From assembly GCF_027891095.1 (NCBI RefSeq), contig NZ_JAQIIO010000002.1:1-64000 (forward strand): DNA of 64,000 bases, in the 5' to 3' direction. Positions 1 through 15,068 of this stretch are shown here, in pieces. The notes beneath the pieces were generated by a model. That model was not told the DNA's origin, did not search any database, and saw only the letters and a list, made by a program, of their open reading frames with translations. A program made the position numbers and the translations under genes. Source of the DNA: Aliiroseovarius salicola. Lineage in GTDB: Bacteria; Pseudomonadota; Alphaproteobacteria; Rhodobacterales; Rhodobacteraceae. Position 1 is the first letter of the stretch. Every line of letters begins with the position of its first letter.

Positions 1-15
1 ACCCAATGCGGACGA

Positions 16-360
16 TCATCTATGCTTTCTACGACACGAGGCGACCTTTGTGAGCGAACTGAGGTTTAGCCATTTGGTGAATGCGCGCCGTGCCCAACCG
101 TCGCCAAGGACTTCTAGTCGTCGTGCGTCGATTGCCGCAGCCGGCGACAGGTCCCCTCTTACAAGATAAATTGAATCAGGAAGCGTACACGCCACATAAA
201 GGGTTATTTCTCCGCCCGGGTTGTCGACGCATAGTTCGCAGCGCCCTTTATGGTTCAGAAACCACCAGAGCCTTTTGGCATCCTTTTGGACGGTTAGCTC
301 TAGCCGTATTAGGCAGCGCTTTGTGCCGAATGCTTTGGGATTGGTTGAGCTTCCCAGGCT
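16..360 (-). pseudogene. 3' remnant of an HxlR-type regulator with SCP2-like C-terminal domain
   Basis: The minus-strand frame reads as the C-terminal half of the HxlR-family regulators that carry an SCP2-like domain. The recognisable parts are RLWWFLNHKGRCELCVDNPG, then TLYV, then RGDLSPAAAI, and a tail AFTKWLNLSSL, matching the family pattern of a WW-rich strand, a GDLS-type loop and a terminal RAF..WL.LS segment. Similarity fades above about position 310, and the N-terminal winged helix that would bind DNA is absent. The frame then runs into antisense of a histidine-kinase fragment. I infer a broken gene whose 5' part was lost at a rearrangement junction. The exact 5' edge is uncertain, and a highly divergent short protein cannot be excluded. 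Confidence 0.5.
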
Positions 361-368
361 CCAGACGA

Positions 369-545
369 GAAAACCTTTTTCAACCCTTCTCGGGATCAAA
401 TCGCAAAGGTGGGGCCGGACTTGGACTTGCGATTTCAGCGGAACTTATCAAGGGGCATGGGGGAGATCTTTCGCTGGAGAAATCAGATGAAAGCGGCACG
501 AGTTTCCGAATTGTGCTTCCGAAAGAAGTTGAGGGTCAGGTTTGA
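369..545 (+). pseudogene. 3' fragment of a sensor histidine kinase (ATPase G-box only)
   Basis: About 58 residues match the end of a HisKA/HATPase_c kinase: a degraded F-box (NLFQPF), the G2 box GGAGLGLAISAELIKGHGG, and the closing GTSFRIVLP strand. Upstream in the same frame there are stops at 51, 60 and 78, and the translation before about 369 has no kinase similarity. The dimerisation, N and G1 boxes are therefore missing and the piece cannot be an active kinase. It abuts an antisense regulator remnant, so this is a junction between two truncated genes. The next intact genes are a Spy/CpxP-like protein and a Crp/Fnr regulator. Confidence 0.65.
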
Positions 546-587
546 GCACTCAATGAGGATTGCGGTTCCACGAACCATTATCCACAC

Positions 588-1172
588 TCAGTTATCATCA
601 CATCCATTGTGCTTGCGCCACATTTCTACATCATGCCCGTCAGGAACGGTTTGGCACGGATCGGAAGTATACCCCCGTAATTCTGAGTATTGTGAAATTT
701 GCTCCGTGGATAGAATGTCAAAGCTTGTTAAATGCCGCGACAGATGGATGTAGCGCAAATTCGCACGAGCGGCCTCGGCGTCGGCAATTAGTATACGCAA
801 CTTTGATAACGAAAGTTCGCCAGACTTGAAGCCCTGATCAAGAGCTCGCTCTGCTTGGATTAGCACCGTCCCTTGGACAACGGCCTCTGATTTCATAACT
901 TCATAAATCATTTGCATTTCAGCAACTTGCGAAGATGTCAGTGCAAGTTCGGTTTGCAACTCCAACACATGTGCTGGCCCCGGATATCCATTCAACTCGG
1001 CTGGCAGGGCCATACCCCAGCCTGCACCGCTTTGCAGTTCCTCGATGTCTTTCGGGGAAAGACTGGCAATGTCTCGTGTCTGAAATCCTTTGTAGGGCTG
1101 ATCGTTGGATTCAGTCAGGGCAGGCGTTCCCATTGTGATTATCAGAATGGCAGTCAATAAAAGCGATTTCAT
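588..1172 (-). CDS. Periplasmic Spy/CpxP-like (LTXXQ) protein
   Basis: A 194-residue secreted protein. The start at 1172 is chosen over an upstream frame start because AAGGAG lies 7 bases before it and because it begins a clear signal peptide (MKSLLLTAILIITMGTPALT). The mature part is helical and carries two LTxxQ-like motifs, LALTSSQ and ILSTEQ, one in each half, as in Spy, CpxP and ZraP, the periplasmic chaperones or metal sensors induced by envelope or metal stress. The C-terminus has two cysteines (SDPCQTV and HNGCDDN) that could form a disulfide or bind metal. It is divergent from a Crp/Fnr regulator across about 50 bp, suggesting shared control. The family call is by motif, and the substrate or metal is unknown. 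Confidence 0.55.
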   Translation of the reverse strand: MKSLLLTAILIITMGTPALTESNDQPYKGFQTRDIASLSPKDIEELQSGAGWGMALPAELNGYPGPAHVLELQTELALTSSQVAEMQMIYEVMKSEAVVQGTVLIQAERALDQGFKSGELSLSKLRILIADAEAARANLRYIHLSRHLTSFDILSTEQISQYSELRGYTSDPCQTVPDGHDVEMWRKHNGCDDN

Positions 1173-1224
1173 GAATTGGCTCCTTCTCTTGCAAAAGGTC
1201 TGTCGCATTTGCTCACAACCCGAT

Positions 1225-1764
1225 ATGATAGCAATCATGTTGGCCGGGTTTTCCTCACTATTTGATCGGGCGCAAGACCGCCGATTTGACGCGGGAACAA
1301 CCGTGTTCCACACGGGAGCACGCGTTATTCAAGTTTTTTTCGTGAAAGACGGCTGTGCCGTTTTGCAGCGACCACTTGCAAACGGAAATGCGGTTTGCCA
1401 GCAAAGGGCCAAAACGGGTGAGGTGGTAGCCGAGGCTTCAGTCTATGCGGACCGATACCATTGTGATTGTTCTGTTACCGAGCCAACAACGTTGGCCGCT
1501 CTGCCACTTCAAGAGTTCAGGCGTGCCTTGCAAGCAGATGCGGGCCTATCCGAAGCGTGGGCCTCGTATCTGGCCAAGGCAGTTCAAAGAACGCGTATGC
1601 GTGCGGAAATTCTCACCCTCAACACCGTTTCGGAAAAACTGGATGCTTGGTTGGCAGAATACGGTCCTCTTCCAGAGAAAGGGCAGTGGCAGGGTGTTGC
1701 AAGCGAGCTTTCGGTGAGTAGAGAGGCCTTTTACCGCGAACTCGCAAAGCGTCGATCAGACTAG
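1225..1764 (+). CDS. Crp/Fnr-family transcriptional regulator
   Basis: About 179 residues. The N-terminal part is a cNMP-binding-like beta barrel (FDAGTTVFHTGARVIQVFFV, then GCAVLQRPLANG and TGEVVAEAS), followed by a long dimerisation helix (LAKAVQRTRMRAEIL). The C-terminal helix-turn-helix, VASELSVSREAFYRELAKRR, resembles the Crp recognition helix. It lacks the N-terminal cysteines expected of a true Fnr oxygen sensor. The frame is open from 1105, but ATG 1225 fits the family length and leaves room for the divergent promoter; ATG 1237 is also possible and no strong ribosome site decides. It is divergent from the Spy/CpxP-like gene and probably controls it. Confidence 0.7.
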   Translation: MIAIMLAGFSSLFDRAQDRRFDAGTTVFHTGARVIQVFFVKDGCAVLQRPLANGNAVCQQRAKTGEVVAEASVYADRYHCDCSVTEPTTLAALPLQEFRRALQADAGLSEAWASYLAKAVQRTRMRAEILTLNTVSEKLDAWLAEYGPLPEKGQWQGVASELSVSREAFYRELAKRRSD

Positions 1765-1838
1765 ACATGAGGCTGGCAGAACAATCATCTGCATATTCGC
1801 AGCGAGTTCACACTGCGCCAGCCTGCCGACCTTTCGCG

Positions 1839-4800
1839 TTACAAATCCAGTCCAATCACCCCGCCTTCATCCCGTGCACGGCTCTGGCACAATATAATCG
1901 CTTTCTCGCGCTGGGCATTCGACAGTACAAAATCGCGGTGCTCTATGTCTCCTGAGTTTACGCCGCATTTGCAAACGCCGCAGAGCCCGTCAGAGCATTT
2001 TACATCCACATGAATGCCATTGGCATTCAAGACGTCCGCGGCCGTCTGATCTTCGGGGACCGTCAGTTCACGCCCATCTTTGAGCCGCAAAATAAAGGGG
2101 TGGTTCTCGTAGTCTGGTTGTTCCGGGACCGAGAAATATTCCAGATGCCGTGCTTCGTCCGGATATCCCTGCCGCGCAGCGCTCTGCATAACGGCGTCCA
2201 TATAACGCTCGGCCCCGCAGCAGTAGACATGCCACCCATTCTGATAGCCGGTCAAAACTTTGTCGAAGTCGGCCCGGGTGCCCTCATCCGAGAAATGGTA
2301 GTGCACTTTATCCGCCCAGGGCATTGCCGCAAGATCTTCAAGATAGCCCGCATTCGCTCGACGGCTGGCAGAATAGTGCAGCTCAAACTCTTTTCCCAAT
2401 GCGTGCAGGCGATGGGCAAAGGCGATCATGGGTGTGATGCCGATGCCGCCCCCCATGAGGAGGGTTTTGGTCGCGGTCTCATCCAGTTCGAAATGGTTGA
2501 TCGGTTTCGAGATGAACACTTTACGACCCGGTTCAAAGATCCGATGCAAAAGCGCAGATCCCCCGCGCCCATCCTCTTCGCGCAGCACTCCGATCTGATA
2601 AGAGCTCCGATCTGCGGGATTACCGGACATGGAATACTGACGCAGGAATTCTGGGCTCACCAAGACATCCAAATGAGCCCCTGCGGTCCACTCTGGCAGG
2701 GGGCTGTCATCAAGCGCGGTGAACTCGTATTTGGTGACGGAATCGGTCATTTCCCCTGTGTTAGAGACTAATACCTGCATCACCGGTGCGTCCCCGTCGA
2801 TTGTGAAACGGTGCACCATCGACAGATCGCCTTTGGCTTTTCGGGCACGATATTCCTCAACTGAAATCATCGCGTCATAGGCCGCAATTCCGGCTTCACG
2901 ATCCATGGGAAACGGGTAGGGGTATGGGGGCGGCGAGAGGTCCGCAGGGTAGGCGGCGAGCGTCTGGTCTTCGGGCTTTAGGTCAATTTCGCGCGACAGT
3001 TCCCGGCGGTTCACGTCCTTTTCCGTGGGGTGATATCCTCCATCGTCCGCCAACTCCAAATCCCACCACCAGGTTTTGACCGGGTTGATCTCGCCATGTC
3101 CTGCGACGTCATCCAGCTTGGCCAGCACCGGTGCTGCGGCAGGGATGTGCGAGGCCGCCCAGCGGAACGGGGTCTGGGCAAACAGCCCTTCGAGGTTCCA
3201 CGGGCAGGTCTTCATGCATCGTCCACACATCGCACCCCCTTGCTGGGTCACGCGATAGGTGGTGCATTTCTGGGCATCCGACTTCCAGATCTCATACCCG
3301 TTGAACATACGCTTCGGGCCTGCCGTGATCGCGCCGGAGGGGCATTCACGGGCACATTTATTGCAGGCGTCACAGAAGGCTTGCAGGCCGAAATCAATCG
3401 GTTTGTCATGCCCCATCGGCATGTCGGTGGTGACGACGCCGGATTTCAGGCGCGGCCCCAGATAGGGGTTGAGGATCACATCACCGATGCGCGAGACCTC
3501 ACCCAACCCTGCGAGCAACAGAAGCGGCGGTTGTAGCACGGTGCCGTCCATCACGGTGTGTGCTTTGGCAGAATAGCCGAGATTTCTGATCTGTTGGGCG
3601 ATGACACCGCCAATGAGCGCAAATCGCAGATAGGCGCGCATGGATTGGCTGACGGCGATCCAGTCATCTCCTGATGCCCCTTCCATCGTCTCAAACCCCT
3701 GATCGACAATCATCGAGATGGCATTGTCATGGGTCGGGTGGATCTCGGCCCCTGTGGCGTCATGGGAATACCAGCACCAGTCCGGGCAACGCGATGTGCC
3801 GGCTGCGTCGACCCCGAGAAAATAGCTTGCGGCCCGAAGATTATCGGCATTGCGCTCCGCGTCAGTGGGGTGGTGGGCGTCCGAAGATGTGCCATCCTGC
3901 AGGGGAACAAAGGCCCCAAGCAAGCGGCGCTGCGCGTAGCTTGGTGCAGACTTACGCACGTAATGCCCGCCTTTCGACGCTTCTTGCAGGTGTTTCCCCA
4001 TGTCACCGAATTGACTGCGGGCAAACATGTCAGAGCGTTTCGGGACGCGGGCCACATTGGGTTCGTCGATATAGGTGGTCGGATCGTCGACGCGCTTCAG
4101 CCGTTCAAACGGATGCGGACCATGCCGGTAGTCACGTTTGGCATATGGGTCACGGGTGAGCGCCGATTTTACATGCCCATTGCCGGGTCCGGTGCCACCC
4201 AGCCACCAGCCGGGGCCGGAGGTGGCGTGCCAGGGCTGTTCGGACATAGGGGCAAGCGGCGCGTCATGGGCAAGACCCATATCCGTGGTAACAACCGCCA
4301 CGCCAAAGCGGTTGTCCAACCACGGGGCCACCAGTTGGCCATTCTCGGCGACAGCAAGACCGGAGGTCACGGCAAGCTGGTTTAGATCCACTTCCGTCGA
4401 CATCGGGCTATGGGCCATAGCGTCAAAGCCCAGAAGCCGGATGTAGTTGGCGACCACCACGGCCGTTTCGGTCGCACGCAGGCAGGCGCGGTGATCCTGC
4501 GCATCAAGGATCCAGTCAGCCCCCCGTTCATCCGGGCGTGGGTCGCGCATGTGTTCGACCAGAAATACAATCGCATTGGGATGATCAACCCGACGCGGTA
4601 TGCGATCCATCGAGGCTTTGAGGTCCGCCATAATCACGTCGATCCCTGCGGCAAGGGTGCGGATCTCGCGCGTCTTGAGCGCTTCGGCCAGTCTGGGAAT
4701 GTCGGGGTTGTGGCGTGGTTCTTGCAGGTATGCGCTTGCGGGTATCGGACCGATGCCAACCATGGAGGTATCAAGATAATACCCGAATGATTTCAAGTGG

Positions 4801-5051
4801 TTGGTGCGTTCCTGAAGGTCAGCTGGAATGCGCCCCTTTTCGGGGTTCACGTCCCCGTCGCGGATCGCGTCCATCATCGCCTGAAACTCACCCATTGCAT
4901 TGACAATGCTCGCGGGCTGTTCCGGGCGGTGAAACGAAAGCGGGGGCATGGTGGGCACGTTTGAGAGATCTGTCTTCTCCGTGCGTTTCAACCGCTCAAG
5001 TGGGTAAGGCCCCAGATGTACAGGGCGTTTTTTGTCGGAAAAGAACTTCAT
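1839..5051 (-). CDS. Cobalamin-dependent reductive dehalogenase fused to an NAD(P)H:FMN/2Fe-2S reductase
   Basis: A 1070-residue self-sufficient dehalogenase of the NpRdhA/BhbA type, which removes halogen from ortho-halogenated phenols using corrinoid cobalt, with electrons from NAD(P)H supplied in cis. Residues about 1-300 are a degenerate copy of the corrinoid domain without cysteines. Residues about 305-620 are the working copy, with a first 4Fe-4S site at C560, C563, C566 and C570 and a second using C596, C609, C612 and C616. Y474, K536 and R600 keep exactly the spacing I recall for Y426, K488 and R552 of NpRdhA. Residues about 740-980 are a ferredoxin-reductase module (RQYS for FMN; GGGIGITP for NAD), and the end is a plant-type 2Fe-2S ferredoxin (CSDGLCGVC, later C). 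There is no Tat signal and no RdhB anchor, so it should be cytosolic. It is coupled by TGATG to the upstream sulfatase. The physiological substrate is unknown. Confidence 0.88.
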   Translation of the reverse strand: MKFFSDKKRPVHLGPYPLERLKRTEKTDLSNVPTMPPLSFHRPEQPASIVNAMGEFQAMMDAIRDGDVNPEKGRIPADLQERTNHLKSFGYYLDTSMVGIGPIPASAYLQEPRHNPDIPRLAEALKTREIRTLAAGIDVIMADLKASMDRIPRRVDHPNAIVFLVEHMRDPRPDERGADWILDAQDHRACLRATETAVVVANYIRLLGFDAMAHSPMSTEVDLNQLAVTSGLAVAENGQLVAPWLDNRFGVAVVTTDMGLAHDAPLAPMSEQPWHATSGPGWWLGGTGPGNGHVKSALTRDPYAKRDYRHGPHPFERLKRVDDPTTYIDEPNVARVPKRSDMFARSQFGDMGKHLQEASKGGHYVRKSAPSYAQRRLLGAFVPLQDGTSSDAHHPTDAERNADNLRAASYFLGVDAAGTSRCPDWCWYSHDATGAEIHPTHDNAISMIVDQGFETMEGASGDDWIAVSQSMRAYLRFALIGGVIAQQIRNLGYSAKAHTVMDGTVLQPPLLLLAGLGEVSRIGDVILNPYLGPRLKSGVVTTDMPMGHDKPIDFGLQAFCDACNKCARECPSGAITAGPKRMFNGYEIWKSDAQKCTTYRVTQQGGAMCGRCMKTCPWNLEGLFAQTPFRWAASHIPAAAPVLAKLDDVAGHGEINPVKTWWWDLELADDGGYHPTEKDVNRRELSREIDLKPEDQTLAAYPADLSPPPYPYPFPMDREAGIAAYDAMISVEEYRARKAKGDLSMVHRFTIDGDAPVMQVLVSNTGEMTDSVTKYEFTALDDSPLPEWTAGAHLDVLVSPEFLRQYSMSGNPADRSSYQIGVLREEDGRGGSALLHRIFEPGRKVFISKPINHFELDETATKTLLMGGGIGITPMIAFAHRLHALGKEFELHYSASRRANAGYLEDLAAMPWADKVHYHFSDEGTRADFDKVLTGYQNGWHVYCCGAERYMDAVMQSAARQGYPDEARHLEYFSVPEQPDYENHPFILRLKDGRELTVPEDQTAADVLNANGIHVDVKCSDGLCGVCKCGVNSGDIEHRDFVLSNAQREKAIILCQSRARDEGGVIGLDL

Positions 5052-6715
5052 CAGTTTTCCTCAACCGGTGTTGCCTTGCCTTGGTAGGCCGCAGTGAATT
5101 CCTCAGGCAGCCCTTCGTCGCCGTAATAGCCCATCAGAATGCCAACCTGTTCCGGTCCACCTTGGCGGCGGGCGCGGATCTCTTCGTCGGAAATGGTGGT
5201 GCGTTGCGACTGGCGTTTGGCCCAATGGTGCAGGTGGTCATACATCTGCGCGATGATCTCGGCGTGATCTGCGCTGGTGCCCAGATCGGTGAATTCCTGA
5301 GGGTCCACCTCAAGATCAAACAGCATCGGGCTGAACCCACCCTCCGCATGGATCAGCTTCCAGCGCTCTGTGACCACCATAAACAGGCGGCAATCACGTG
5401 GGGCCAGCCCCAGTCGATCCGCCATCGGTGAGGTGGAGTAGTCATATTCACTGATCGCAAAATCGCGCCATTCGCTCTCTTCACCCCTCAGAAGTGGAAC
5501 CAGTGATCTCCCTTCGAGAATGTGGTCAGCCACTTTGCCGCCCGCCATGTCCACGAAAGTGGCGGCGAGGTCGATCTGTTCGATGAGCTTACTCGACACC
5601 GTGCCACGCGTGGCATCCGCTTCGGAGCGTGGATCGGCGATGATCAGCGGCACCCGCACCGATGGGTCGTGGAAGAAATCCTTTTCACCCATCCAGTGAT
5701 CACCCATGTAATCGCCATGATCCGAGGTGAGCACGATCACGGTTTTTTCAGCCTGACCCGTTTCGTCGAGATAATCGAGGATTCGTCCCAGATGATCGTC
5801 GCATTGCTTGATCAGACCCATATAGGCGGGGATCACCACGTCACGCACGTCGTTGCGTGAGAAGGCAGCAGAGAGTTTGCCGTGCAGATAGGCGTCAAAC
5901 ACCGGGTGGGCGTCTGTGCGTTCCTTGTCCGACCGCACCACGGGCTGGATGTCCTCGATCCCATACATATCGTGATAAGGGGCGGGTACGATATAGGGCC
6001 AATGGGGTTTGATGTAGCTGAGATGTGCACACCACGGATCTCGGCCCCTCTTCGCCTCCATGAAATCGATGGCACGGTCGGTGAGCCAGGGGGTTTCGCT
6101 GTCCCCTTCCCGAATATTGGCGGGTTTGCCCGCGTGCTTCATCAAAAAACCGCTGGCGATGTCACCGTCGCCATCGATCCCCGCGTTCGCATGGTCATGC
6201 CACGGGTTATGATCGGTATAACCTTTCTCGCGCAGATACGCGTTATAGGGCGAGCGCCTCTGGTCATAAAACCCCTTCGGCCCCTCAGCCCAGAGCCCAT
6301 CGTCACGGAGCCAGATGTCAAAACCACACTCACCCACGCGAGCGCCAATGACCGAATCAGGAGCCAGCCCCAAGCGCGCCATTCCTTCGCTATCAGCCTT
6401 CATATGGGTCTTGCCGATCAGCCAGCAATCCATCCCGGCTTTTCGCAAGTGGTCCCCCATGGTGATCTCCCCAACCTTTAGGGGAAAATTGTTGTAGGCC
6501 GCCCCATGGGACGAAACATAGCGACCGGTATAGGTGCTCATCCGGCTCGATCCGCAAACAGGGGACTGGCAATAGGCCCGGTCAAACCGGACACCGCGCG
6601 CTGCCACCCGGTCGAAATTAGGCGTTTCCAACGTCTTGTGACCCGCGCAGCTGAGGTAATCAAAGCGCAGCTGGTCATACATGATGAACAGGATATTCGG
6701 TGCTGTTTTCCCCAT
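5051..6715 (-). CDS. Sulfatase (alkaline phosphatase superfamily), atypical active-site signature
   Basis: A 554-residue type I sulfatase-like hydrolase. Metal-site blocks are present: NILFIMYDQLRFDYLSC at the N-terminus, then VLTSDHGDYMGDH in the middle and a phosphatase-type C-terminal domain. The nucleophile region reads CGSSRMSTYTGR with Cys54. Type I sulfatases normally have C-x-P-S/A-R, and formylglycine-generating enzyme recognises the Pro; here it is Ser (codon TCG, one base from CCG). There is no signal peptide, so it should be cytosolic. Arylsulfatase, choline-sulfatase-like or phosphonate monoesterase activities are all possible. Its stop overlaps the dehalogenase start (TGATG), and nothing else lies in this minus-strand unit, implying a two-gene operon acting on a common compound class. 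Confidence 0.85.
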   Translation of the reverse strand: MGKTAPNILFIMYDQLRFDYLSCAGHKTLETPNFDRVAARGVRFDRAYCQSPVCGSSRMSTYTGRYVSSHGAAYNNFPLKVGEITMGDHLRKAGMDCWLIGKTHMKADSEGMARLGLAPDSVIGARVGECGFDIWLRDDGLWAEGPKGFYDQRRSPYNAYLREKGYTDHNPWHDHANAGIDGDGDIASGFLMKHAGKPANIREGDSETPWLTDRAIDFMEAKRGRDPWCAHLSYIKPHWPYIVPAPYHDMYGIEDIQPVVRSDKERTDAHPVFDAYLHGKLSAAFSRNDVRDVVIPAYMGLIKQCDDHLGRILDYLDETGQAEKTVIVLTSDHGDYMGDHWMGEKDFFHDPSVRVPLIIADPRSEADATRGTVSSKLIEQIDLAATFVDMAGGKVADHILEGRSLVPLLRGEESEWRDFAISEYDYSTSPMADRLGLAPRDCRLFMVVTERWKLIHAEGGFSPMLFDLEVDPQEFTDLGTSADHAEIIAQMYDHLHHWAKRQSQRTTISDEEIRARRQGGPEQVGILMGYYGDEGLPEEFTAAYQGKATPVEEN

Positions 6716-7031
6716 GGATCATGCGCTCCTCGTTGCGAATGCGGCGATATGAGCATGGCGAATCGCGGCAGGGAAGAGAAATTGGATCCAATCCGAAAAT
6801 TTTAACAAGTGAGAGAGTCGCTGCTGGGACACTGCCTGCCGTGTTTTTCATTGCGAGCACCGGGATTGCTGCATATACCCGCTCGTGACGAAGCCCTACG
6901 GGCCAGAGAGGTTGGCTGCCTGCCATCGACCCAGTCAGGGGATGAAAGGCAGCGTCGTCCGAGATGCAGGCGCATAGACCGCTGCATCCGATGTCTCTTT
7001 TCTGCGCCCCGAACCCGCGAAAGGAAGACCC
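6716..7031. other. 316-bp divergent intergenic region with hairpin-rich leader of the corrin operon
   Basis: This region separates the minus-strand sulfatase from the plus-strand corrin operon and must hold both promoters. On the plus side I see three consecutive potential stem-loops: CGAGC (6854) with GCTCG (6881), which also pairs GGG with CCC inside; CTGCCT (6916) with AGGCAG (6947); and GATGCAG (6963) with CTGCATC (6982). The last ends 43 bases before the first start codon. I looked for the B12-riboswitch core (GCCACTG) and the GAGYCAGGAGACCTGCC-type box and found neither on either strand. The structure is inferred by eye. Confidence 0.4.
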
Positions 7032-7283
7032 ATGTCGAAATCCCTTCTTCTGTCAGCTGCTGTGGTTGCACTGACCACAGCTCCTGCCATGGCCCATATT
7101 GGTCATTTGGGTGAAGTGGCTGGTCACGGCCATTGGGGCGCAATTATTTTCCTTGGTGGGGCTGCTGCCGTAGGTCTTTGGGCTGCGATCAAAGGCAAGA
7201 AAGACGCCGAGAAAGCCGAAGCAGAAGGCGCGGAAGAAGACGCCGAAGAAGAGATCGGTGATGAAGAGCTGGTGGGGGCCTGA
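7032..7283 (+). CDS. Small membrane protein, DUF6732-like, first gene of the corrin operon
   Basis: An 83-residue protein with an N-terminal hydrophobic signal/anchor (LLLSAAVVALTTAPAMA), then a His-rich HIGHLGEVAGHGHW segment, one transmembrane helix (AIIFLGGAAAVGLWAAIKG) and an acidic Glu/Ala tail. AAAGGAAGAC provides the ribosome site. Short proteins of this design head cobalamin gene sets in Rhodobacterales (family recalled as DUF6732). The five histidines before the helix suggest cobalt or nickel handling at the membrane, but that is inference. The next gene, cbiX, starts 3 bases after its stop, so the two are surely cotranscribed. Confidence 0.65.
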   Translation: MSKSLLLSAAVVALTTAPAMAHIGHLGEVAGHGHWGAIIFLGGAAAVGLWAAIKGKKDAEKAEAEGAEEDAEEEIGDEELVGA

Positions 7284-7286
7284 TCC

Positions 7287-8579
7287 ATGACCACTCAGCA
7301 GGATGCCCAAGCTAAGAAATTTGGTGTGATGATCTGTGGGCACGGCTCGCGCAGCCAAGCCGCCGTGGATGAATTCAAAGTGCTGGCGGAAAAGCTTCCA
7401 GCGCTGCTACCTGACAATTGGATGGTGGATTATGGCTATCTGGAGTTCGCCAACCCGGTGATCCGGGACGGGCTGGACAATCTGCGGGAAGCAGGTTGTG
7501 ATCGGATCCTTGCGGTGCCGGGGATGCTCTTTGCCGCGATGCACTCGAAGAACGATATTCCGACCGTGCTGAACACCTATGCCACCAAACATGGCATTGA
7601 TGTGAGCTATGGGCGCGAGCTGGGCGTAGACCCGAAAATGGTGGCGGCAGCCGGTGCTCGTATTCGCGATGCGGTTGATGCGGCCAATGCAGAACATGGC
7701 GAGGTGCCGCTGGAGGAAACCTGTCTGGTGGTGATCGGGCGCGGCGCATCTGACCCCGACGCCAACGCAAACGTGTCGAAAATCGCGCGTCTGCTGCAGG
7801 AAGGCATGGGCTTCGGCTGGCTGGAAGTGGGCTATTCCGGCGTGACCTTCCCGCTGGTGGAACCCTGCCTGACCCACACCGCCAAGCTGGGTTACAAACG
7901 CGTCGTCGTCTTCCCCTATTTCCTCTTCACCGGCATCCTGATCGACCGGATTTATGGTTTCACTGACCGCGTGGCCGAACGTCATCCCGAGATCCAGTTC
8001 GTGAAAGCCGGGTATCTGAACGATCACGAGAAGGTTCTGGAAACCTTTGCCGAGCGGATCACCGAACAGGTGGGTGCGATGCCACCGCCCAACTGCGGTA
8101 CCTGTGCTTATCGCGATCAGGTTTTGGCGCTGGACGACCCAAAAGTGGCGGCGATCTCCGCAGAGGATCGTGCCAAGCATCCGGCTTTTTCCGACACACC
8201 CCCGCCGACCTGCGTGATGTGCAAATACCGCGTGGAAGTGCTGGGTTTTGAAAGCGAGCTGGGGGCGGTGCAGGAAAGCCACCACCACCATGTGGAAGGG
8301 CAGGGGGCAAACGCGCCCGGTTCGACCGTCGAGACCTGCACGCTCTGCGACAATTTCTGCACCGGCGCCTGCCGGTTGGACATGGATCATCACCACCACC
8401 ACCACGATCATTCGCATGATCACCACCATCATCACGACCATGCCCACGATCACTCTCACGATCATGGCCATCACCATCATCACCATGGTCATGACCACCA
8501 TCATGATCACGATCACCACCACCCGGAATACCCTCATGCCAAACACCCGCATGGCCCGGAATCGGCCCGCGTAAAATGA
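7287..8579 (+). CDS. cbiX: Sirohydrochlorin cobaltochelatase, long form with Cys clusters and His-rich tail
   Basis: A 430-residue chelatase inserting Co(II) into sirohydrochlorin or precorrin-2, an early step of the early-cobalt route. Two CbiX repeats are visible: VMICGHGSRSQAAVDEF near the start and CLVVIGRGASDPDANANV near residue 150, with the metal-side histidines of each half. The C-terminal third carries CGTCAYR, CVMCKYR and CTLCDNFCTGAC, the cysteine-rich segment known in long CbiX proteins that bind an Fe-S cluster. The last 60 residues contain 35 histidines broken by Asp, an obvious metal-sequestering tail. It overlaps cobH by 4 bases (ATGA). The frame and repeats are unambiguous; whether the tail stores cobalt or nickel is open. 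Confidence 0.92.
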   Translation: MTTQQDAQAKKFGVMICGHGSRSQAAVDEFKVLAEKLPALLPDNWMVDYGYLEFANPVIRDGLDNLREAGCDRILAVPGMLFAAMHSKNDIPTVLNTYATKHGIDVSYGRELGVDPKMVAAAGARIRDAVDAANAEHGEVPLEETCLVVIGRGASDPDANANVSKIARLLQEGMGFGWLEVGYSGVTFPLVEPCLTHTAKLGYKRVVVFPYFLFTGILIDRIYGFTDRVAERHPEIQFVKAGYLNDHEKVLETFAERITEQVGAMPPPNCGTCAYRDQVLALDDPKVAAISAEDRAKHPAFSDTPPPTCVMCKYRVEVLGFESELGAVQESHHHHVEGQGANAPGSTVETCTLCDNFCTGACRLDMDHHHHHHDHSHDHHHHHDHAHDHSHDHGHHHHHHGHDHHHDHDHHHPEYPHAKHPHGPESARVK

Positions 8580-9229
8580 GTACACGTCCGCCCTTGCGCT
8601 ATGAGCGTGACCCGATGGCAATCTATGCCGAGAGCTTTGCAACCTTGCGCCGTGAAGCCCGGCTGGAACGCTTTCCCGGCGGCATGGCCGCACTTGCCAC
8701 CCGTGTGATCCACGCCTGTGGCATGGTGGAAGTGGCCGATCGTTTGGCCTTCTCGGAAAACGCCTATCAGGCGGGTCATGAAGCGCTGAAATTTGGCGCA
8801 CCGGTGTTTTGCGATTGCGAGATGGTCGGCGCGGGGATCATCCGCCGCTACCTGCCTGCGGAAAACGAGGTGATTGTCACCCTCAACGACCCGCGCACGC
8901 CGGATCTGGCGAAAGAGATTGGCAATACCCGCTCTGCCGCCGCTGTGGAACTCTGGGCCGACAAGCTTGAAGGCGCCGTGGTTGCCGTGGGCAACGCCCC
9001 CACCGCGCTCTTCCACCTGTTGGAACTGATCGACGCGGGTGGACCAAAACCCGCCGTGATCCTTGGGTTTCCCGTGGGATTTGTCGGTGCTGCCGAAAGC
9101 AAAGCAGAACTGGCGAACAATTCCCGTGGTTGCGAATACGTCGCCCTGCGTGGACGTCGTGGCGGATCAGCGATTGCTTCTGCTGCGGTAAACGCGCTGG
9201 CGGCTGGACTGCCGGAGGAGAAGGTATGA
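8576..9229 (+). CDS. cobH: Precorrin-8X methylmutase
   Basis: A 217-residue CobH/CbiC enzyme that moves the C11 methyl group to C12, giving hydrogenobyrinate or cobyrinate. Family landmarks are the catalytic-histidine region TRVIHACGM, the segment FCDCEMVGAGI, and the conserved loop VGNAPTALFHLLELI followed by ILGFPVGFVGAAESK. The length is normal. It starts inside the end of cbiX (ATGA) and overlaps cobL in the same way, so it is translated within one tightly coupled message. The family does not reveal by itself whether the substrate carries cobalt, but the upstream CbiX suggests that it does. Confidence 0.95.
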   Translation: MSTRPPLRYERDPMAIYAESFATLRREARLERFPGGMAALATRVIHACGMVEVADRLAFSENAYQAGHEALKFGAPVFCDCEMVGAGIIRRYLPAENEVIVTLNDPRTPDLAKEIGNTRSAAAVELWADKLEGAVVAVGNAPTALFHLLELIDAGGPKPAVILGFPVGFVGAAESKAELANNSRGCEYVALRGRRGGSAIASAAVNALAAGLPEEKV

Positions 9230-10425
9230 CGCAGCCTTGGCTTCACATTATCGGCATCGGCGAAGATGGGCTTGACGGTCTGACGCCGGCCACCCGCGCG
9301 GTAATCGATGCAGCCGATGTGATCGTTGGCGGCAAACGCCATCACGAAATGCTCGATACGCAAGCCGAGCGCCTCGCTTGGCCGTCGCCGTTTGATGCGC
9401 TGATAGGCGAGCTTGAGGCCCGTCGTGGACAAACCGTCGCCGTGCTGGCCTCTGGCGATCCGCTCTGGTTTTCGGTTGGGGCCAAGATCGGCCGCCATCT
9501 CGATCCGGCGGAACTTGTATATCATCCGCAGGTTGGCGCCTTCCAGCTGGCCGCCGCTCGCATGGGCTGGTCAATGGCGGACCTGGAAACGCTCACCGTG
9601 CATGGTCGCCCGGTTGAGCAGATGATTGCCTTCATTCAGCCAGATGTACGGCTCTTGATCCTGACCACAGGCGCGGAAACGCCCCAGCAGATCGCCAAAT
9701 TTCTCACCGAGCGAGGCTTTGGTGGGTCGCGTCTTACCGTGCTGGCCCATATGGGGGGCGAGAAGGAAGAGCGCTTTGACGGGGTGGCGGAGAGCTGGGA
9801 CCACGACGTGCCCGCGTTCAATACGCTTGCTGTGGAATGTATCGCCGCGCCGGATGCAGCCCTTATGCCCCGCGTGCCGGGACTTGCAGACAAGCTTTTC
9901 CAAAGCGACGGCACCATGACCAAGCAAGAGGTGCGCGCGATCACGCTGGCGAAACTGATGCCAATGCGTGGTGCACTGCTCTGGGACATCGGTACGGGCT
10001 GCGGTTCGGTTGCAGTCGAATGGATGCGAGGGGCACGTTACGCCCGTGCAATCGGGATTGAACCCAAACCCGAACGCCGCGCCATGGCGGCCGCCAACGC
10101 CCTGGCGCTGGGTGTGCCACGTTTGGAACTGGTAGACGGCACGGTGCCCGCAGCGCTTGATGGTCTGGAAGCCCCAGACGCCGTTTTCATCGGTGGGGGT
10201 CTCAGTGAAGAGGTGTTTGACGCCGCTTGGGCCGCCCTGCGTCCGTTGGGACGGCTGGTCGCCAATGCCGTCACCATCGAAAGCGAAATGTGCCTGGCAG
10301 CGCTGCATGCCAAACATGGCGGCCAACTGGTAAAGCTCTCGGTTGAACGCGCCGAAGCGCTGGGGCCGCTTTCCGGGTGGAAACCCATGCGCCCGGTCAC
10401 ACAATGGAGCTTGATCAAGAGATGA
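9226..10425 (+). CDS. cobL: Precorrin-6Y C5,15-methyltransferase (decarboxylating), CbiE-CbiT fusion
   Basis: A 399-residue bifunctional methyltransferase that methylates C5 and C15 and decarboxylates the C12 acetate side chain. The N-terminal half is a CbiE tetrapyrrole methylase (IIGIGEDGLDGLTP, ASGDPLWFSVG). The C-terminal half is a CbiT Rossmann methyltransferase (MRGALLWDIGTGCGSVAVEW, then VFIGGG). The start at ATG 9226 overlaps the cobH stop (ATGA). An open frame extends upstream to 9130, but that stretch is antisense-free shadow inside cobH and is rejected. The stop overlaps the next ATG. Confidence 0.95.
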   Translation: MTQPWLHIIGIGEDGLDGLTPATRAVIDAADVIVGGKRHHEMLDTQAERLAWPSPFDALIGELEARRGQTVAVLASGDPLWFSVGAKIGRHLDPAELVYHPQVGAFQLAAARMGWSMADLETLTVHGRPVEQMIAFIQPDVRLLILTTGAETPQQIAKFLTERGFGGSRLTVLAHMGGEKEERFDGVAESWDHDVPAFNTLAVECIAAPDAALMPRVPGLADKLFQSDGTMTKQEVRAITLAKLMPMRGALLWDIGTGCGSVAVEWMRGARYARAIGIEPKPERRAMAAANALALGVPRLELVDGTVPAALDGLEAPDAVFIGGGLSEEVFDAAWAALRPLGRLVANAVTIESEMCLAALHAKHGGQLVKLSVERAEALGPLSGWKPMRPVTQWSLIKR

Positions 10426-11123
10426 GTGGAACCCTTTACGGGATCGGCCTTGGCCCGGGGGATCCCGAGCTGATGACGCTGAAGGCTGCGCGGCTGATCG
10501 CGGCGGCCAAAGTGGTGGCCTATCCGGCGCTGGAATGTGGCAACAGCTTTGCGCGGTCCATTGCCACCGACCTGATCTCCCCGGATGCGGACGAAATCAC
10601 TATTGCAGTCCCCATGACGGTGGAGCGCGCCCCGGCACAGGCGGCCTATGATGCGGGTGCTGCACAGATCGCCGAGCGACTTGCCGCCGGAAACGATGTA
10701 GTTGTGCTCTGCGAGGGCGATCCGTTTTTCTACGGTTCTTTCATGTATCTATTTGCGCGGCTGTCGGATCGGTTTGACTGCGAAATCATCCCCGGCGTGA
10801 CGTCAATCACCACCGTAGCCGCCCGTGCCAAACGCCCGCTTGTGGCCCGCAATGAACGCCTGACCGTGCTGCCCGGCCCGCTTGATGAGGGTGAGTTGCG
10901 GTCGCGTATTGAAGGGGCGGAAAGCGTGGCGATCATGAAGGTTGGGCGTCATCTGCCCAAGATCCGCGCCGTAATAGACGATCTCGGTCTGACCGACAAA
11001 GCCACTTATGTGGAGCGCGCCAGCCTGCCTGAAGAGGTTGTGCTGCCGCTATCCGAAGCCCCTGAAAAGGCACCATATTTCTCGATGATCCTGCTTGCGA
11101 AAGGAACCGATCCATGGCTGTAA
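10422..11123 (+). CDS. cobI: Precorrin-2 C20-methyltransferase
   Basis: A 233-residue SAM-dependent methylase (CobI/CbiL) that methylates C20 of precorrin-2 or its cobalt form. Seen: the N-terminal glycine loop GIGLGPGDPELMTLKAA, the middle motif VVLCEGDPFFYGSFMYL and IPGVTSITTVAARAKRPL, all standard for precorrin methylases with the CobI-specific FYGS. ATG 10422 forms an ATGA overlap with cobL and is preferred to the upstream in-frame ATG at 10377. The end overlaps the next gene by 10 bases. It acts directly after CbiX or, in the late-cobalt route, on the metal-free ring. Confidence 0.94.
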   Translation: MSGTLYGIGLGPGDPELMTLKAARLIAAAKVVAYPALECGNSFARSIATDLISPDADEITIAVPMTVERAPAQAAYDAGAAQIAERLAAGNDVVVLCEGDPFFYGSFMYLFARLSDRFDCEIIPGVTSITTVAARAKRPLVARNERLTVLPGPLDEGELRSRIEGAESVAIMKVGRHLPKIRAVIDDLGLTDKATYVERASLPEEVVLPLSEAPEKAPYFSMILLAKGTDPWL

Positions 11124-12913
11124 GCCCTGTTGTCATTTGTCTGAACTCATCAGGCGAAGCATTGGCCCACCGGGTCGCCGCGCTGTTGGGCGCACAGGTC
11201 CATGGCCGCGAAAGCCGGGTTGAAAAGGCCGATGCCTTTTTCCCCAATGCGCTGGATCATGTGCGTATGCTCTTTGCGGCGGGTACCCCGGTTGTGGGCG
11301 TTTGTGCTGCTGGCATTCTGATCCGTGCCGTGGCACCGATCCTTGCCAACAAACTGGCGGAACCTCCCGTTGTGGCGGTGGCGGATGATGGCTCTGCGGT
11401 GCTGCCCTTGCTTGGGGGCCATCGTGGTGCAAACCGTCTGGCCAGCCAGATCGCCTCTGAAATCGGGGCCACCGCTGCTGTGACCACTGCAGGTGACGTG
11501 TCGATGGGTGTGGCTTTGGACGAGCCGCCCGTGGGCTATCGTCTTGCCAATCCGAGCGACGCCAAGGACGCCATGGCGGAACTCCTGTCCGGTGCGGGCG
11601 TGTCCATTGTCGGAGAAAATATCTTCGACATCGAAGATGCAGGCGGCACGGTTGAACTTGTCGTGTCAGAAACCTCGGTTGAAACCGGTCCGACCCGTTT
11701 GGCCTATCATCCGCAGCGCTTTGCCCTCGGTGTGGGCTGTGCCCGCAATGCGGATCCCGAAGAGCTGTGGCAGAATGTGTCCGAGCAGCTGGCCGCCGCC
11801 AATATCGCACCAGAAGCCATCGCCTGCGTGACCTCGCTCGACCTCAAGGCCGATGAGTTGGCAATGAACCAACTGGCCCGCCGCCTTGACGTACCATTCC
11901 GCGTTTTCTCGGCTGCTGAACTGGAAGCCGAAACCGTGCGTCTGGCCAATCCATCTGACGTGGTGTTTGAAGAAGTGGGCTGTCATGGCGTGTCCGAAGG
12001 CGCGGCCCTTGCCGCAGCCGGCCCACAAGCCGAGCTGGTTGTTCCGAAAACCAAAACGGCCAACACCACCTGCGCTCTTGCGCGTTCGCCGGAGCCAATC
12101 ACCGAGATGCGCGGTCGCACCCGTGGCAAGCTCTCGATCGTCTCGATCGGGCCGGGTCAGCACACATGGCGCACGCCAGAAGCCAGCCGCCTGTTGCAAG
12201 AGGCCGAAGAGCTGGTGGGCTACGGGCTCTACATCGACCTGATCGGCCCGCTGGCTGCTGGCAAAACCCGCTCCGATTTCCCGCTGGGCGGTGAAGAAGA
12301 CCGTTGCCGTTATGCGCTGGAGCAAGCAGGCAAAGGCAAGAACGTTGCGCTGGTTTGTTCCGGCGACGCGGGCATCTATGCGATGGGCGCACTGGTTTAT
12401 GAACTGTTGGACCGGACTGCGGAAGAAAAAGGCGTGTCGGATGCAGCACGTCGGGTCGAGGTGGTCTCCACACCCGGTGTGTCCGCGCTGCAAGGGGCAG
12501 CGGCCCGTGCAGGGGCACCGCTGGGCCATGATTTCTGCGCTATTTCGTTGTCGGATCTGCTGACCCATCGCGAAGACATCGTGAAGCGCCTGCACGCCGC
12601 TGCCGAAGGTGATTTCGTAATTGCCTTCTACAACCCGGTATCGATGAAACGTCGCACGCTTCTCGCTGAAGCTCGTGACATTCTGCTCAAGCATCGCCCG
12701 GCTGATACGCCGGTGATGCTGGCCTCGAACCTTGGGCGCCCGACGGAAAACATCCGCTATCGTCGCCTAGACGAGCTCGAAGTGGATGAGGTCGATATGC
12801 TGACCGTGGTGCTGGTCGGATCAAGCAATTCGCGGCTCGCCCAATTGGGCGAAGGCCCCCGTATGTTCACCCCGCGCGGCTATGCCCGCCGCATCGACGG
12901 AGATCTGTCATGA
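11114..12913 (+). CDS. cbiG-cobJ: Fused cobalt-precorrin-5A hydrolase / precorrin-3B C17-methyltransferase
   Basis: A 599-residue fusion. Residues about 1-330 form CbiG: an N-domain with GVCAAGILIRAVAPIL and LLGGHRGANRLASQIA, and a CbiG-C/CobE domain with ALGVGCARNADPEEL and the closing loop KTANTTCALAR. Residues about 345-599 are CobJ/CbiH, the ring-contracting methylase (LSIVSIGPGQ, YGLYIDLIGPL, VCSGDAGIYAMGALVYEL, VSTPGVSALQGAAARAGAPL, FYNPVSMKRRT). CbiG removes the C20 fragment as acetaldehyde in the cobalt-first pathway, so the fusion couples ring contraction and its following step. It overlaps cobI by 10 bases and cobM by 4. Confidence 0.93.
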   Translation: MAVSPVVICLNSSGEALAHRVAALLGAQVHGRESRVEKADAFFPNALDHVRMLFAAGTPVVGVCAAGILIRAVAPILANKLAEPPVVAVADDGSAVLPLLGGHRGANRLASQIASEIGATAAVTTAGDVSMGVALDEPPVGYRLANPSDAKDAMAELLSGAGVSIVGENIFDIEDAGGTVELVVSETSVETGPTRLAYHPQRFALGVGCARNADPEELWQNVSEQLAAANIAPEAIACVTSLDLKADELAMNQLARRLDVPFRVFSAAELEAETVRLANPSDVVFEEVGCHGVSEGAALAAAGPQAELVVPKTKTANTTCALARSPEPITEMRGRTRGKLSIVSIGPGQHTWRTPEASRLLQEAEELVGYGLYIDLIGPLAAGKTRSDFPLGGEEDRCRYALEQAGKGKNVALVCSGDAGIYAMGALVYELLDRTAEEKGVSDAARRVEVVSTPGVSALQGAAARAGAPLGHDFCAISLSDLLTHREDIVKRLHAAAEGDFVIAFYNPVSMKRRTLLAEARDILLKHRPADTPVMLASNLGRPTENIRYRRLDELEVDEVDMLTVVLVGSSNSRLAQLGEGPRMFTPRGYARRIDGDLS

Positions 12914-13701
12914 CCGTTTATTTCATTGGTGCCGGTCCCGGCGACCCGGAACTTCTGACCCTTAAGGCGCAACGCATCATCGGTGAATGCCCGGTCTGCC
13001 TGTACGCCGGGTCGCTTGTGCCGCCGCAAGTGGTGGCCGGTGCGCCCGAAGGGGCCAAGGTTATGGACACCGCCTCCATGACACTTGATGACACCCACGC
13101 CGAGATCAAAGCCGCGCACGCGCGGGGTGAAGACGTGGCGCGTGTGCACTCCGGTGATCCCTCGCTATACGGTGCCATTGCAGAACAGATCCGCCGCCTG
13201 AAGGCAGATGGTATCGACTATCAGGTCATCCCCGGTGTGCCCGCCTATGCCGCCGCTGCCGCCGCTCTGGGACAAGAATTGACAATCCCCGAGATCGCGC
13301 AGTCGATTGTGCTGACCCGCATGTCGATGCAGTCCACCTCGATGCCTGAAGGTGAATCGCTGGAGAATTTCGCCAAAACCGGTGCTACGCTCGCCATCCA
13401 CCTTGCGGTGCGCAATATGCGCGAGATCGAACGGGTGCTTGCTCCATATTACGGCGAAGATTGCCCAGTGGTGGTGGCCTATCGCGTGGGCTGGCCGGAC
13501 GAGATGTTCATCCGTGGCACTATTGCCGACATTCGCAAGAAAGTGCGCGCCGAAAAGATCACCCGCACCGCGTTGATCCTTGTTGGTCCCGCCCTCAATT
13601 CGGGCCGCGACTTTAAGGACAGCGCGCTTTACGACCCCAAGATCCCTCATGTCTTGCGCCCAGTGGTGGGTGTGGATCTTGTTGAAGATCACAACACCTG
13701 A
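12910..13701 (+). CDS. cobM: Precorrin-4 C11-methyltransferase
   Basis: A 263-residue CobM/CbiF methylase. Motifs in order: YFIGAGPGDPELLTLKAQ, CLYAGSLVPPQVV (CobM-specific), VHSGDPSLYGAIAEQIRRL, IPGVPAYAAAAAALGQELT and the family signature QSIVLTRMSMQSTSMP. It starts in an ATGA overlap with cbiG-cobJ and is the last gene before a strong terminator. The operon lacks cobA, cobK, cobF, cobG/cobZ, cobB and cobNST, which must lie elsewhere if the pathway is complete. Confidence 0.95.
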   Translation: MTVYFIGAGPGDPELLTLKAQRIIGECPVCLYAGSLVPPQVVAGAPEGAKVMDTASMTLDDTHAEIKAAHARGEDVARVHSGDPSLYGAIAEQIRRLKADGIDYQVIPGVPAYAAAAAALGQELTIPEIAQSIVLTRMSMQSTSMPEGESLENFAKTGATLAIHLAVRNMREIERVLAPYYGEDCPVVVAYRVGWPDEMFIRGTIADIRKKVRAEKITRTALILVGPALNSGRDFKDSALYDPKIPHVLRPVVGVDLVEDHNT

Positions 13702-13726
13702 TCCATCGACGTAGAATTTAAATGGA

Positions 13727-13759
13727 AAGGCGGCTCGAACCACTTCGGGCCGCCCTTTT
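13727..13759 (+). terminator. Rho-independent terminator of the corrin operon
   Basis: A GC-rich hairpin (GGCGGC..CGAA paired with TTCG..GCCGCC) starts 28 bases after the cobM stop and is followed by TTTT. It is the only such structure between cobM and the next gene and marks the 3' end of the seven-gene unit. Confidence 0.75.
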
Positions 13760-13883
13760 GTATGGTGTGGCGACAACACCTTCATTCTGTGGATAGTTTG
13801 AAAAAACATCTCGACAAACAAAAGGTTAACTTGACCGTTACAATTCTCATGGCATGATTGTCTTCCACGCTGGGAGATGGATG

Positions 13884-14237
13884 ATGCTGGAACATTTGCC
13901 GAAAGAGGTTCGTGAAGGGCTTGAAGCAGCCCGCAAACGCGACCTGAAAAAGAAATCACGCCTGCGCATTCGCGTTAACGAGGAAGTGTTTCCGGTGCTG
14001 AAATTCTGGGAAACTGGTTTTTCTCTGGACGCAGCACGCGCACCCCATTTGCGCGGGTTGGTGGATCTCTATGACGGCAGCCGCCACCTTTATCAGTGCC
14101 TGATTGTCGCCTCGGAAGAGGAAGACGGGCAGATGATATACGAATTCAAGCGCAAGGCTGAGGCCCATGATAACGCGCCGCTCGATTTCGCCCGCGACGA
14201 GGACGCCCCTGTGGGATTGATTGCCAAAGAGGTTTGA
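13884..14237 (+). CDS. Conserved hypothetical cytosolic protein
   Basis: 117 residues, no signal peptide or membrane segment. It is basic at the N-terminus (ARKRDLKKKSRLRIRV) and then has a beta-rich body with GFSLDAARAPHLRGLVDLYDG and an acidic C-terminus (DFARDEDAPVG). The arrangement R-x-R...G-x-S loosely recalls PilZ domains, but the diagnostic RxxxR and D/NxSxxG motifs are not clear, so I do not assign it. GGGAG at 13872 sits 7 bases from ATG 13884; ATG 13881 is equally in frame and an open frame extends to 13854. It stands alone after the corrin terminator. Confidence 0.7.
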   Translation: MLEHLPKEVREGLEAARKRDLKKKSRLRIRVNEEVFPVLKFWETGFSLDAARAPHLRGLVDLYDGSRHLYQCLIVASEEEDGQMIYEFKRKAEAHDNAPLDFARDEDAPVGLIAKEV

Positions 14238-14310
14238 TCAAGAAAACGGCATAATCCAGTTGGTGAAGCGCCGTTTGGTGAAGCGCTGTGCAGTTGAATC
14301 GATCATTGCC

Positions 14311-14376
14311 TCATCTTCTGACTATAAATATCCTGGGGTTCGAGGGCATTTTGGAATTGGTCTGGGAGACCAATTC
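14311..14376 (-). repeat. Dispersed intergenic repeat, copy 1, with perfect 10-bp hairpin
   Basis: On the minus strand the sequence reads a perfect hairpin (GAATTGGTCT, 3-base loop, AGACCAATTC; 14354-14376) followed by CCCCAGGATATTTATAG and a purine tail. The GGATATTT-purine motif recurs at 32035 and 50682, always in intergenic DNA. It lies between two genes facing each other. I interpret it as a REP-like element of this lineage. Confidence 0.55.
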
Positions 14377-14432
14377 GCCCGTAGAACCGGCAGAGCCCCC
14401 AGGCTCACGATGTGAGCCAAGCTCAGCCCAGA

Positions 14433-14975: not shown

Positions 14976-15068
14976 GTGCAGAAACTGGCCCAGCCGGTTT
15001 GGGATCGCAACCGGAAGCGGAGTGGATGAAGCTAACCGGGCAAGGATCTGCCGACCCGGTCCTGCGGA

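Follow-up and report, generated by a model that had tools for sequence, protein, structure and literature searches.

The closest described relatives of the system considered here are catabolic reductive dehalogenases (RdhAs) with a fused reductase, and an arylsulfatase. JtRdhA from Jhaorihella thermophila uses NADPH to debrominate and deiodinate phenols, also aerobically, and does not remove chlorine; enzymes of the NpRdhA/JtRdhA kind need cobalamin, and specificity for ortho-halogenated phenols is reported for every catabolic RdhA characterised so far (PMC10463259). In the BhbA pathway of Comamonas sp. 7D-2, rdhA on plasmid pBHB is preceded by ligA, ligB and a gene for a transport protein, and dehalogenation feeds protocatechuate 4,5-cleavage. 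The RdhA of plasmid pOM-1 of Nitratireductor sp. OM-1 is accompanied by aldehyde dehydrogenase, OsmC, pobA, lig-like and gal-like genes. SpAS2 is an arylsulfatase of Silicibacter pomeroyi (4UPL; PMC12421950, PMC5870055, PMC12917725). Here we describe a locus in Aliiroseovarius salicola that brings relatives of these enzymes together. In the first 64,000 nucleotides of contig NZ_JAQIIO010000002.1 (assembly GCF_027891095.1), referred to as the window, a gene for an SpAS2-type arylsulfatase directly precedes one for a self-sufficient RdhA.

The window RdhA shares its domain plan, fused reductase, listed active-site residues and marine origin with JtRdhA, but no sulfatase partner is discussed for the latter and the word 'sulfatase' is absent from the accessible text of PMC10463259. 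The Comamonas enzyme is also of this type, with 48.7% identity in the first 740 residues, but its substrate is derived from bromoxynil, its setting is soil and no sulfatase was found in the 20-kb stretch of pBHB; on pOM-1, likewise, none was found within 10 kb of RdhA. The window sulfatase and SpAS2 have 63% identity, the motif CGSSR and an arylsulfatase-type active site in common. Each enzyme belongs to a known family, and what would be new is that a sulfatase precedes a self-sufficient RdhA. We judge the pair to be real, recurrent and an extension of the BhbA-type catabolic dehalogenation route, with a predicted substrate. On balance, the two genes probably form a short catabolic module of aerobic marine Rhodobacteraceae, in which cytosolic desulfation would be followed by debromination or deiodination and then by ring catabolism.

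The first-pass annotation of this DNA had remarked that the pairing is not known as a described pathway. No description of it was found in the accessible text of the literature searched, outside which lie subscription journals and preprints. PMC6129605 reports a reductive dehalogenase and a sulfatase in the same single-cell genomes, unpaired in the accessible text; PMC8528874 mentions the two separately, and in PMC10838667 a sulfatase appears only as an analogy. The same literature yielded no description of the bacterial opening of doubly masked, that is sulfated and brominated, aromatics in oxygenated seawater. If true, the module would connect the turnover of algal organosulfates with that of algal organobromines, and SpAS2-type sulfatases would gain a natural substrate class. 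Together with a larger operon from genome G379 (see below), the pair supplies defined genes and a succession of steps that can be put to the test.

Two coupled genes for a sulfatase and a reductive dehalogenase

The sulfatase gene (5051-6715, minus strand, 554 amino acids) and rdhA (1839-5051, minus strand, 1070 amino acids) share a single A, with which the sulfatase stop codon TGA (5053-5051) overlaps the rdhA start codon ATG (5051-5049) to give TGATG (5049-5053). The coupling proposed in the first-pass annotation can be read directly in the sequence, and both open reading frames (ORFs) lie exactly where it had placed them. A GAGGAA stretch stands just 5' of the rdhA ATG, within the sulfatase gene.

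By sequence comparison, the RdhA is a self-sufficient enzyme of the NpRdhA/JtRdhA/BhbA type, for which NAD(P)H-driven dehalogenation of o-halophenols is predicted; its earlier designation as a self-sufficient, cobalamin-dependent reductive dehalogenase is borne out. The RDH domain scores 195.8 bits against a TIGR02486 cut-off of 160.35, and the Fe-S motif families Fer4_7 and Fer4_16 exceed their cut-offs. The protein matches NpRdhA (4ras) from residue 1 (E 3e-156, aligned to 4ras residues 1-692 in two stretches) and 6zxu (E about 1e-156). According to the 4ras alignment, residues 1-737 (2841-5051, minus strand) comprise a vestigial N-terminal domain and the catalytic part with cobalamin and two [4Fe-4S] clusters. 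Residues 763-1070 (1839-2765, minus strand) make up the fused NAD(P)H/flavin/[2Fe-2S] reductase, which resembles phthalate dioxygenase reductase (2pia residues 14-315 over RdhA residues 763-1062), matches 6kbh and contains Fer2 (PF00111). The protein start, the only part read for this purpose, reveals neither an export signal nor a membrane anchor. The NpRdhA residues F291, S422, M423, Y426, K488 and R552, all six of them active-site residues conserved between NpRdhA and JtRdhA (PMC10463259), are identical in the window RdhA. This kind of RdhA is common in the family Rhodobacteraceae, with matches at E <= 1e-90 in 150 of 394 genomes.

Two further relatives deserve mention. Roseobacter sp. MED193 encodes an NpRdhA-type RdhA (L062) that is 69% identical to the window enzyme. 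Its identification with the MED193 debrominase Ros_A3X954 was considered and rejected; the accessible text of PMC13101508 places the Fe-S motifs of Ros_A3X954 at residues 283-294 and 337-345, so that it looks like a short reductive dehalogenase. A plasmid of Yoonia sp. SS1-5, a strain from marine algae, carries an RdhA match in two pieces (L253), unannotated as a gene and possibly a frameshifted copy, which adjoins a TRAP transporter and has a MarR gene nearby.

The sulfatase matches PF00884 with 144 bits, and SpAS2 is its nearest solved relative (340 of 542 aligned positions identical, E 4e-235). The formylglycine site is C54-G-S-S-R58, the LysA/HisA pair corresponds to K102/H104, and D14, D332 and H333 are metal ligands by position in the sequence; the residue roles are taken from PMC5870055 and PMC5488252. 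The Lys/His pair marks the SpAS arylsulfatases, and RlPMH has Tyr/Thr at those positions (PMC5488252). For SpAS2, the reported kcat/KM values are 2.1e5 with p-nitrophenyl sulfate, 4.0e2 with p-nitrophenyl phenylphosphonate and 5.6 with the phosphate, a preference for aryl sulfate over phosphonate of about 500-fold (PMC12421950, Table 3), and choline formation was undetected with SpAS1 and SpAS2 in the accessible text of PMC5870055. The window protein scores 210 bits against the choline sulfatase equivalog TIGR03417 (cut-off 433) and 298 bits against the PehA phosphoric/sulfuric ester hydrolase family NF045661 (cut-off 900). The SpAS2 data, the Lys/His pair and both sub-cut-off scores make it unlikely that the enzyme acts only on choline sulfate or phosphonate esters, a case that the first-pass annotation had named as speaking against its proposal; active-site residues and relatives point to an arylsulfatase, and the choline sulfatase and phosphonate hydrolase readings were rejected. 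A promiscuous hydrolase of the PehA/PMH group, with which the pair would act on a halophenyl phosphonate or phosphate, is very improbable: PehA is the best NCBIfam match, but the score falls far under the cut-off, and both the similarity to SpAS2, with its strong preference for aryl sulfate, and the arylsulfatase-type K102/H104 point elsewhere. The earlier label 'cytosolic sulfatase' thus stands as regards the sulfatase, while the cytosolic location is judged from reading the protein start only. Sulfatases of this type occur in 182 of the 394 family genomes, and no relative was found on viral contigs.

Recurrence of the pairing

RdhA neighbourhoods were compared in two sets. The first comprises the 142 neighbourhoods retrieved from the 149 RdhA genomes of the family other than the window's own, with about 8 kb on each side of a 740-residue match; 32 of these stretches fall short of 18 kb, and upstream sequence extends to 5 kb or more in 127 of the 140 with a called RdhA ORF. 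The second consists of 80 named loci, which rank best among at least 586 relatives and therefore lean to close kin; 18 of them are shorter than 23 kb. The sets overlap (HIMB11 is in both), and their counts are not added.

Six of the 142 family neighbourhoods (G373, G176, G064, G379, G251 and G137) have a close sulfatase no more than 8 kb from RdhA, and the RdhA-linked close sulfatases are 61-77% identical. G373 belongs to the same genus as the window organism; the two genes of G137 diverge, and those of G251 are separated by ABC-transporter-like genes on the opposite strand. L225 was dropped from an initial listing of seven as a distant sulfatase (27% identity), and G057, with a sulfatase 9.7 kb downstream of RdhA on the same strand, stands outside the count and is labelled 'near' in both trees described below. 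By chance 0.7-0.8 pairs would occur; the Poisson probability of six is about 1e-4 to 2e-4, and that of the five left if G373 is omitted is 8e-4 to 1.5e-3. The expectation was calculated for genes placed uniformly and for 147 sulfatase copies (E <= 1e-150), and because at most three candidates were scored per genome, both the copies and the expected pairs are lower bounds. Among the 80 named loci, a close sulfatase was found in six: Aliiroseovarius lamellibrachiae, Z3, S1339 and A. zhejiangensis, all Aliiroseovarius, the metagenome-assembled genome Ww113, and HIMB11. It is adjacent upstream in the four Aliiroseovarius and in Ww113, and 5 kb upstream in HIMB11.

Clustering of the neighbouring genes gave 32 listed families, and the sulfatase alone among them keeps an upstream, same-strand position throughout its cluster (five of five genomes; the divergent G137 sulfatase is outside this cluster). 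In a tree of 33 sulfatases the label 'RdhA-linked', G057 included, needs seven changes, at least six of them forced by well-supported branches; in an RdhA tree, which took in 20 random others, the pair label needs eight, at least four of them forced. Such changes can be losses or gains, and the pairing has thus been formed or lost repeatedly. These data support the conclusion that several Aliiroseovarius retain the sulfatase–RdhA pair and that it turns up in further lineages of the family more often than expected by chance. The neighbourhood comparison suggested by the first-pass annotation has therefore come out in its favour, and the possibility it had raised, that the pair is conserved in no other genome, is contradicted by the several Aliiroseovarius and the separate branches of the sulfatase tree.

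Another gene met in these neighbourhoods is MttB-like, found by blastp near RdhA in 17 of the 142. In a cluster of 16 taken for this gene, all members lie on the opposite strand, 12 of them upstream. The gene also occurs beside the Aliiroseovarius pairs L003 (5908-7458), L048 and L065, together with TetR and OYE-like (Old Yellow Enzyme-like) genes.

Richer operons and a predicted catabolic route

The most informative context is that of G379 (L086), where lig genes, a sulfatase, an alkylsulfatase relative, a short-chain dehydrogenase/reductase (SDR) gene and rdhA follow one another on one strand, separated by no more than about 60 bp. The genes start at 5161 (ligA), 5553 (ligB), 6418 (ligC-like), 7356 (sulfatase), 8996 (metallo-beta-lactamase fold), 10321 (SDR), 11100 (rdhA), 14379 (PIG-L-type, galB-like), 15113 (ligK), 15780 (4-oxalomesaconate tautomerase) and 16861 (ligI-like amidohydrolase), and the TTG start of the sulfatase overlaps the ligC-like stop codon. 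LigA, LigB, LigK and the tautomerase exceed NCBIfam cut-offs, and the ligC-, galB- and ligI-like genes are named by fold and position. The metallo-beta-lactamase-fold product is 63% identical to the class-B alkylsulfatase of HIMB11, and the SDR is closest to coniferyl-alcohol dehydrogenase, below its cut-off (226.7 against 242). As annotated, the sulfatase, the class-B alkylsulfatase relative, the SDR and RdhA sit inside a protocatechuate 4,5-cleavage operon.

In HIMB11 (L071), genes for an EamA transporter, the sulfatase, a class-B alkylsulfatase (PF14863, above cut-off), a TRAP transporter (DctM and NMT1_3), an SDR and RdhA are arranged in this order on one strand, and a convergent gene after rdhA was read, without a family search, as an IclR-type regulator. 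G082 (L242, C35) has a cluster of aldehyde dehydrogenase, OsmC, SDR, IclR, sulfatase, alkylsulfatase (PF14863) and TRAP-TAXI genes, and its rdhA lies elsewhere in the genome. The aldehyde dehydrogenase shares 67% identity with its counterpart adjoining rdhA on the Nitratireductor OM-1 plasmid. Possibly this cluster without RdhA serves a general route for sulfated hydroxybenzyl alcohols. A pobA relative occurs near RdhA in four of the 142 family neighbourhoods and in one of the 80 named loci. With ligAB in Comamonas 7D-2, pobA, lig and gal genes in OM-1 and these pobA neighbours, RdhA repeatedly feeds hydroxybenzoate/protocatechuate catabolism, and the sulfatase would be an added front end to it in some lineages.

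The route predicted for the pair would begin with the import of an aryl sulfate ester that carries a halogen ortho to oxygen, a task for which the TRAP systems of HIMB11 and G082 are candidates. The cytosolic arylsulfatase would hydrolyse the sulfate ester by means of a formylglycine nucleophile derived from C54, after which the fused RdhA would debrominate or deiodinate the free o-halophenol with NAD(P)H. The freed ring would then enter ordinary aromatic catabolism, which in G379 would be protocatechuate 4,5-cleavage, for which the operon itself carries the genes. Desulfation probably comes first, since free phenols with an ortho halogen are the substrates of those RdhAs of this type that have been characterised. 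What the sequences show directly is which genes these are, how they are coupled, their active-site residues, their recurrence and their operon settings, whereas the substrate, the succession of reactions, transport and maturation are predicted. Of the earlier proposal that the pair desulfates and then dehalogenates sulfated halophenols of algal origin, the core is favoured by the recurrence, the arylsulfatase group and an RdhA relative active on o-bromo- and o-iodophenols, whereas its link to corrin synthesis is not supported (see below).

As to the substrate, the genes around the richer pairs appear to match simple bromophenol sulfates less well than sulfated bromo-hydroxybenzyl alcohols or hydroxybenzoates. 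They would fit a compound whose ring carries bromine and an aryl sulfate and whose benzylic alcohol is masked by an alkyl sulfate. Such features are combined in lanosol-4,7-disulfate from the red alga Vertebrata lanosa (PMC9322897). A tentative reading of the G379 operon, which we hold to be possible rather than probable, is that it encodes a complete aerobic pathway, so far not described, by which red-algal bromophenol sulfates of this kind would be degraded, and of which the window would retain a stripped core. The arylsulfatase would remove the ring sulfate and the class-B alkylsulfatase relative the benzylic one; an SDR and an aldehyde dehydrogenase, the latter seen in the G082 sister module and not in the G379 operon, would oxidise the benzyl alcohol; RdhA would remove bromine; and LigABC with GalB, LigK, the tautomerase and LigI would open and degrade the ring. 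No paper on lanosol or bromophenol sulfate degradation was found in the literature searched. Of the two lanosol bromines, at positions 2 and 3, just the neighbour of the 4-hydroxyl group stands ortho to an oxygen; for this reason 3-bromo- and 3,5-dibromo-4-hydroxybenzyl sulfates would suit RdhA better than lanosol.

A number of results weigh against the short catabolic module. No close sulfatase was found in 136 of the 142 RdhA neighbourhoods, in the examined flanks of three Aliiroseovarius RdhA loci (L061, L063 and L068) or in any of six plasmid RdhA neighbourhoods examined (eight plasmid records matched), and RdhA was absent from the flanks of 20 sulfatases sampled away from RdhA, as the sampling design predicts. 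The sulfatase is present in 111 of 149 genomes with RdhA against 70 of 244 without, a co-occurrence confounded by kinship and (marine) habitat. No recognised transporter directly adjoins the window pair according to the ORF list and profile searches. In the window genome, which is 99.98% complete, no match was found to the LigB family, an intradiol dioxygenase family or the class-B alkylsulfatase (alkylsulfatase dimerisation) family; neither PF03781, the formylglycine-generating enzyme (FGE), nor, at 40 bits against a cut-off of 349, the anaerobic maturase TIGR03942 was detected.

The neighbourhood results bear on a looser association, in which two accessory genes common in marine Rhodobacteraceae come to lie in the same flexible regions; the sulfatase would then scavenge sulfur or aryl sulfates in general, and the coupling would be a chance operon that became fixed in some Aliiroseovarius. 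Both genes are indeed common in the family, RdhA neighbourhoods are very varied, and most RdhA genes and sampled sulfatases are not neighbours. This explanation is nevertheless rather unlikely, though it keeps a real share of our expectation: pairs are more frequent than it predicts, they fall on separate branches of the sulfatase tree, of the listed neighbour families only that of the sulfatase has an upstream, same-strand position throughout, and in G379 both genes are embedded in one aromatic operon.

The missing families suggest that the window pair is a reduced version. The locus has no protocatechuate 4,5-dioxygenase genes, and a BhbA-like lig–rdhA cluster is found instead in G379 (L086). 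The window genome matches the homogentisate dioxygenase family, and since LigB and intradiol families were not found, the ring product probably leaves by another route, perhaps through hydroxyphenylacetate and homogentisate.

The maturation results raise the further alternative that the window sulfatase is unmatured and poor, or uses its cysteine or an unknown maturase, which would make desulfation weak or conditional and would be compatible with the module. FGE was not found in the genomes of the window (G000), G373 and G064; among the eight genomes checked for anaerobic maturases, G064 has one above cut-off and G000 and G373 do not. Of the 182 family genomes with an SpAS2-type sulfatase, 79 are without a PF03781 match at E <= 1e-8. 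The usual maturation consensus of sulfatases is CxPxR, and the window motif CGSSR lacks the proline. That consensus does not define the SpAS group, because SpAS2 itself has CGSSR; a proline-less CG[S/A/G]SR is found in 33 of 33 sulfatases compared, including those from genomes with FGE, and SpAS2 is reported to be active when made in E. coli, which together make poor maturation an unlikely account. For SpAS1 and RlPMH variants, FGE was co-expressed according to the accessible text of the reports.

The divergent corrin operon and other neighbours

Upstream, the pair faces a corrin-synthesis operon on the plus strand (7032-13701) across a divergent region of 316 bp (6716-7031) without a convincing Rfam match. 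This layout had been described correctly: the first plus-strand ORF starts at 7032, and the operon comprises, in order, a small ORF and genes for a CbiX-like protein, CobH, CbiE-CbiT, CobI, CbiG-CobJ and CobM, with precorrin-8X methylmutase, CbiE, CbiT, CobI, the CobJ domain and CobM above NCBIfam cut-offs.

It had also been suggested that the operon serves the dehalogenase, such that the module would be placed there to secure its B12 cofactor and the three units would form one functional region. The corrin genes are real and divergent from the pair, and an RdhA of this kind needs cobalamin. However, cob genes were found beside RdhA in none of the 142 other family neighbourhoods (four cob queries) and in none of the 80 named loci (six cob queries), the closest relative L003 included, and no cobalamin riboswitch was found: no Rfam family reached the gathering score in 1-16000, nor was such a riboswitch among the Rfam matches at E <= 5 in 6600-7400. 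A functional link is therefore highly improbable, the corrin operon was rejected as a part of the module, and its position next to the window pair looks accidental.

A consensus scan for promoters and terminators gave four promoters against 2.9 in shuffled sequences and eight terminator-like sites against 4.5, and was not used. On the other side of the pair, a gene with a Crp/Fnr-type cyclic-nucleotide-binding domain (PF00027) at 1105-1764 is convergent with rdhA. Within the corrin operon, the CbiX-like chelatase (7287-8579) carries a long, histidine-rich C-terminal tail and scores below the NCBIfam nickelochelatase cut-offs.

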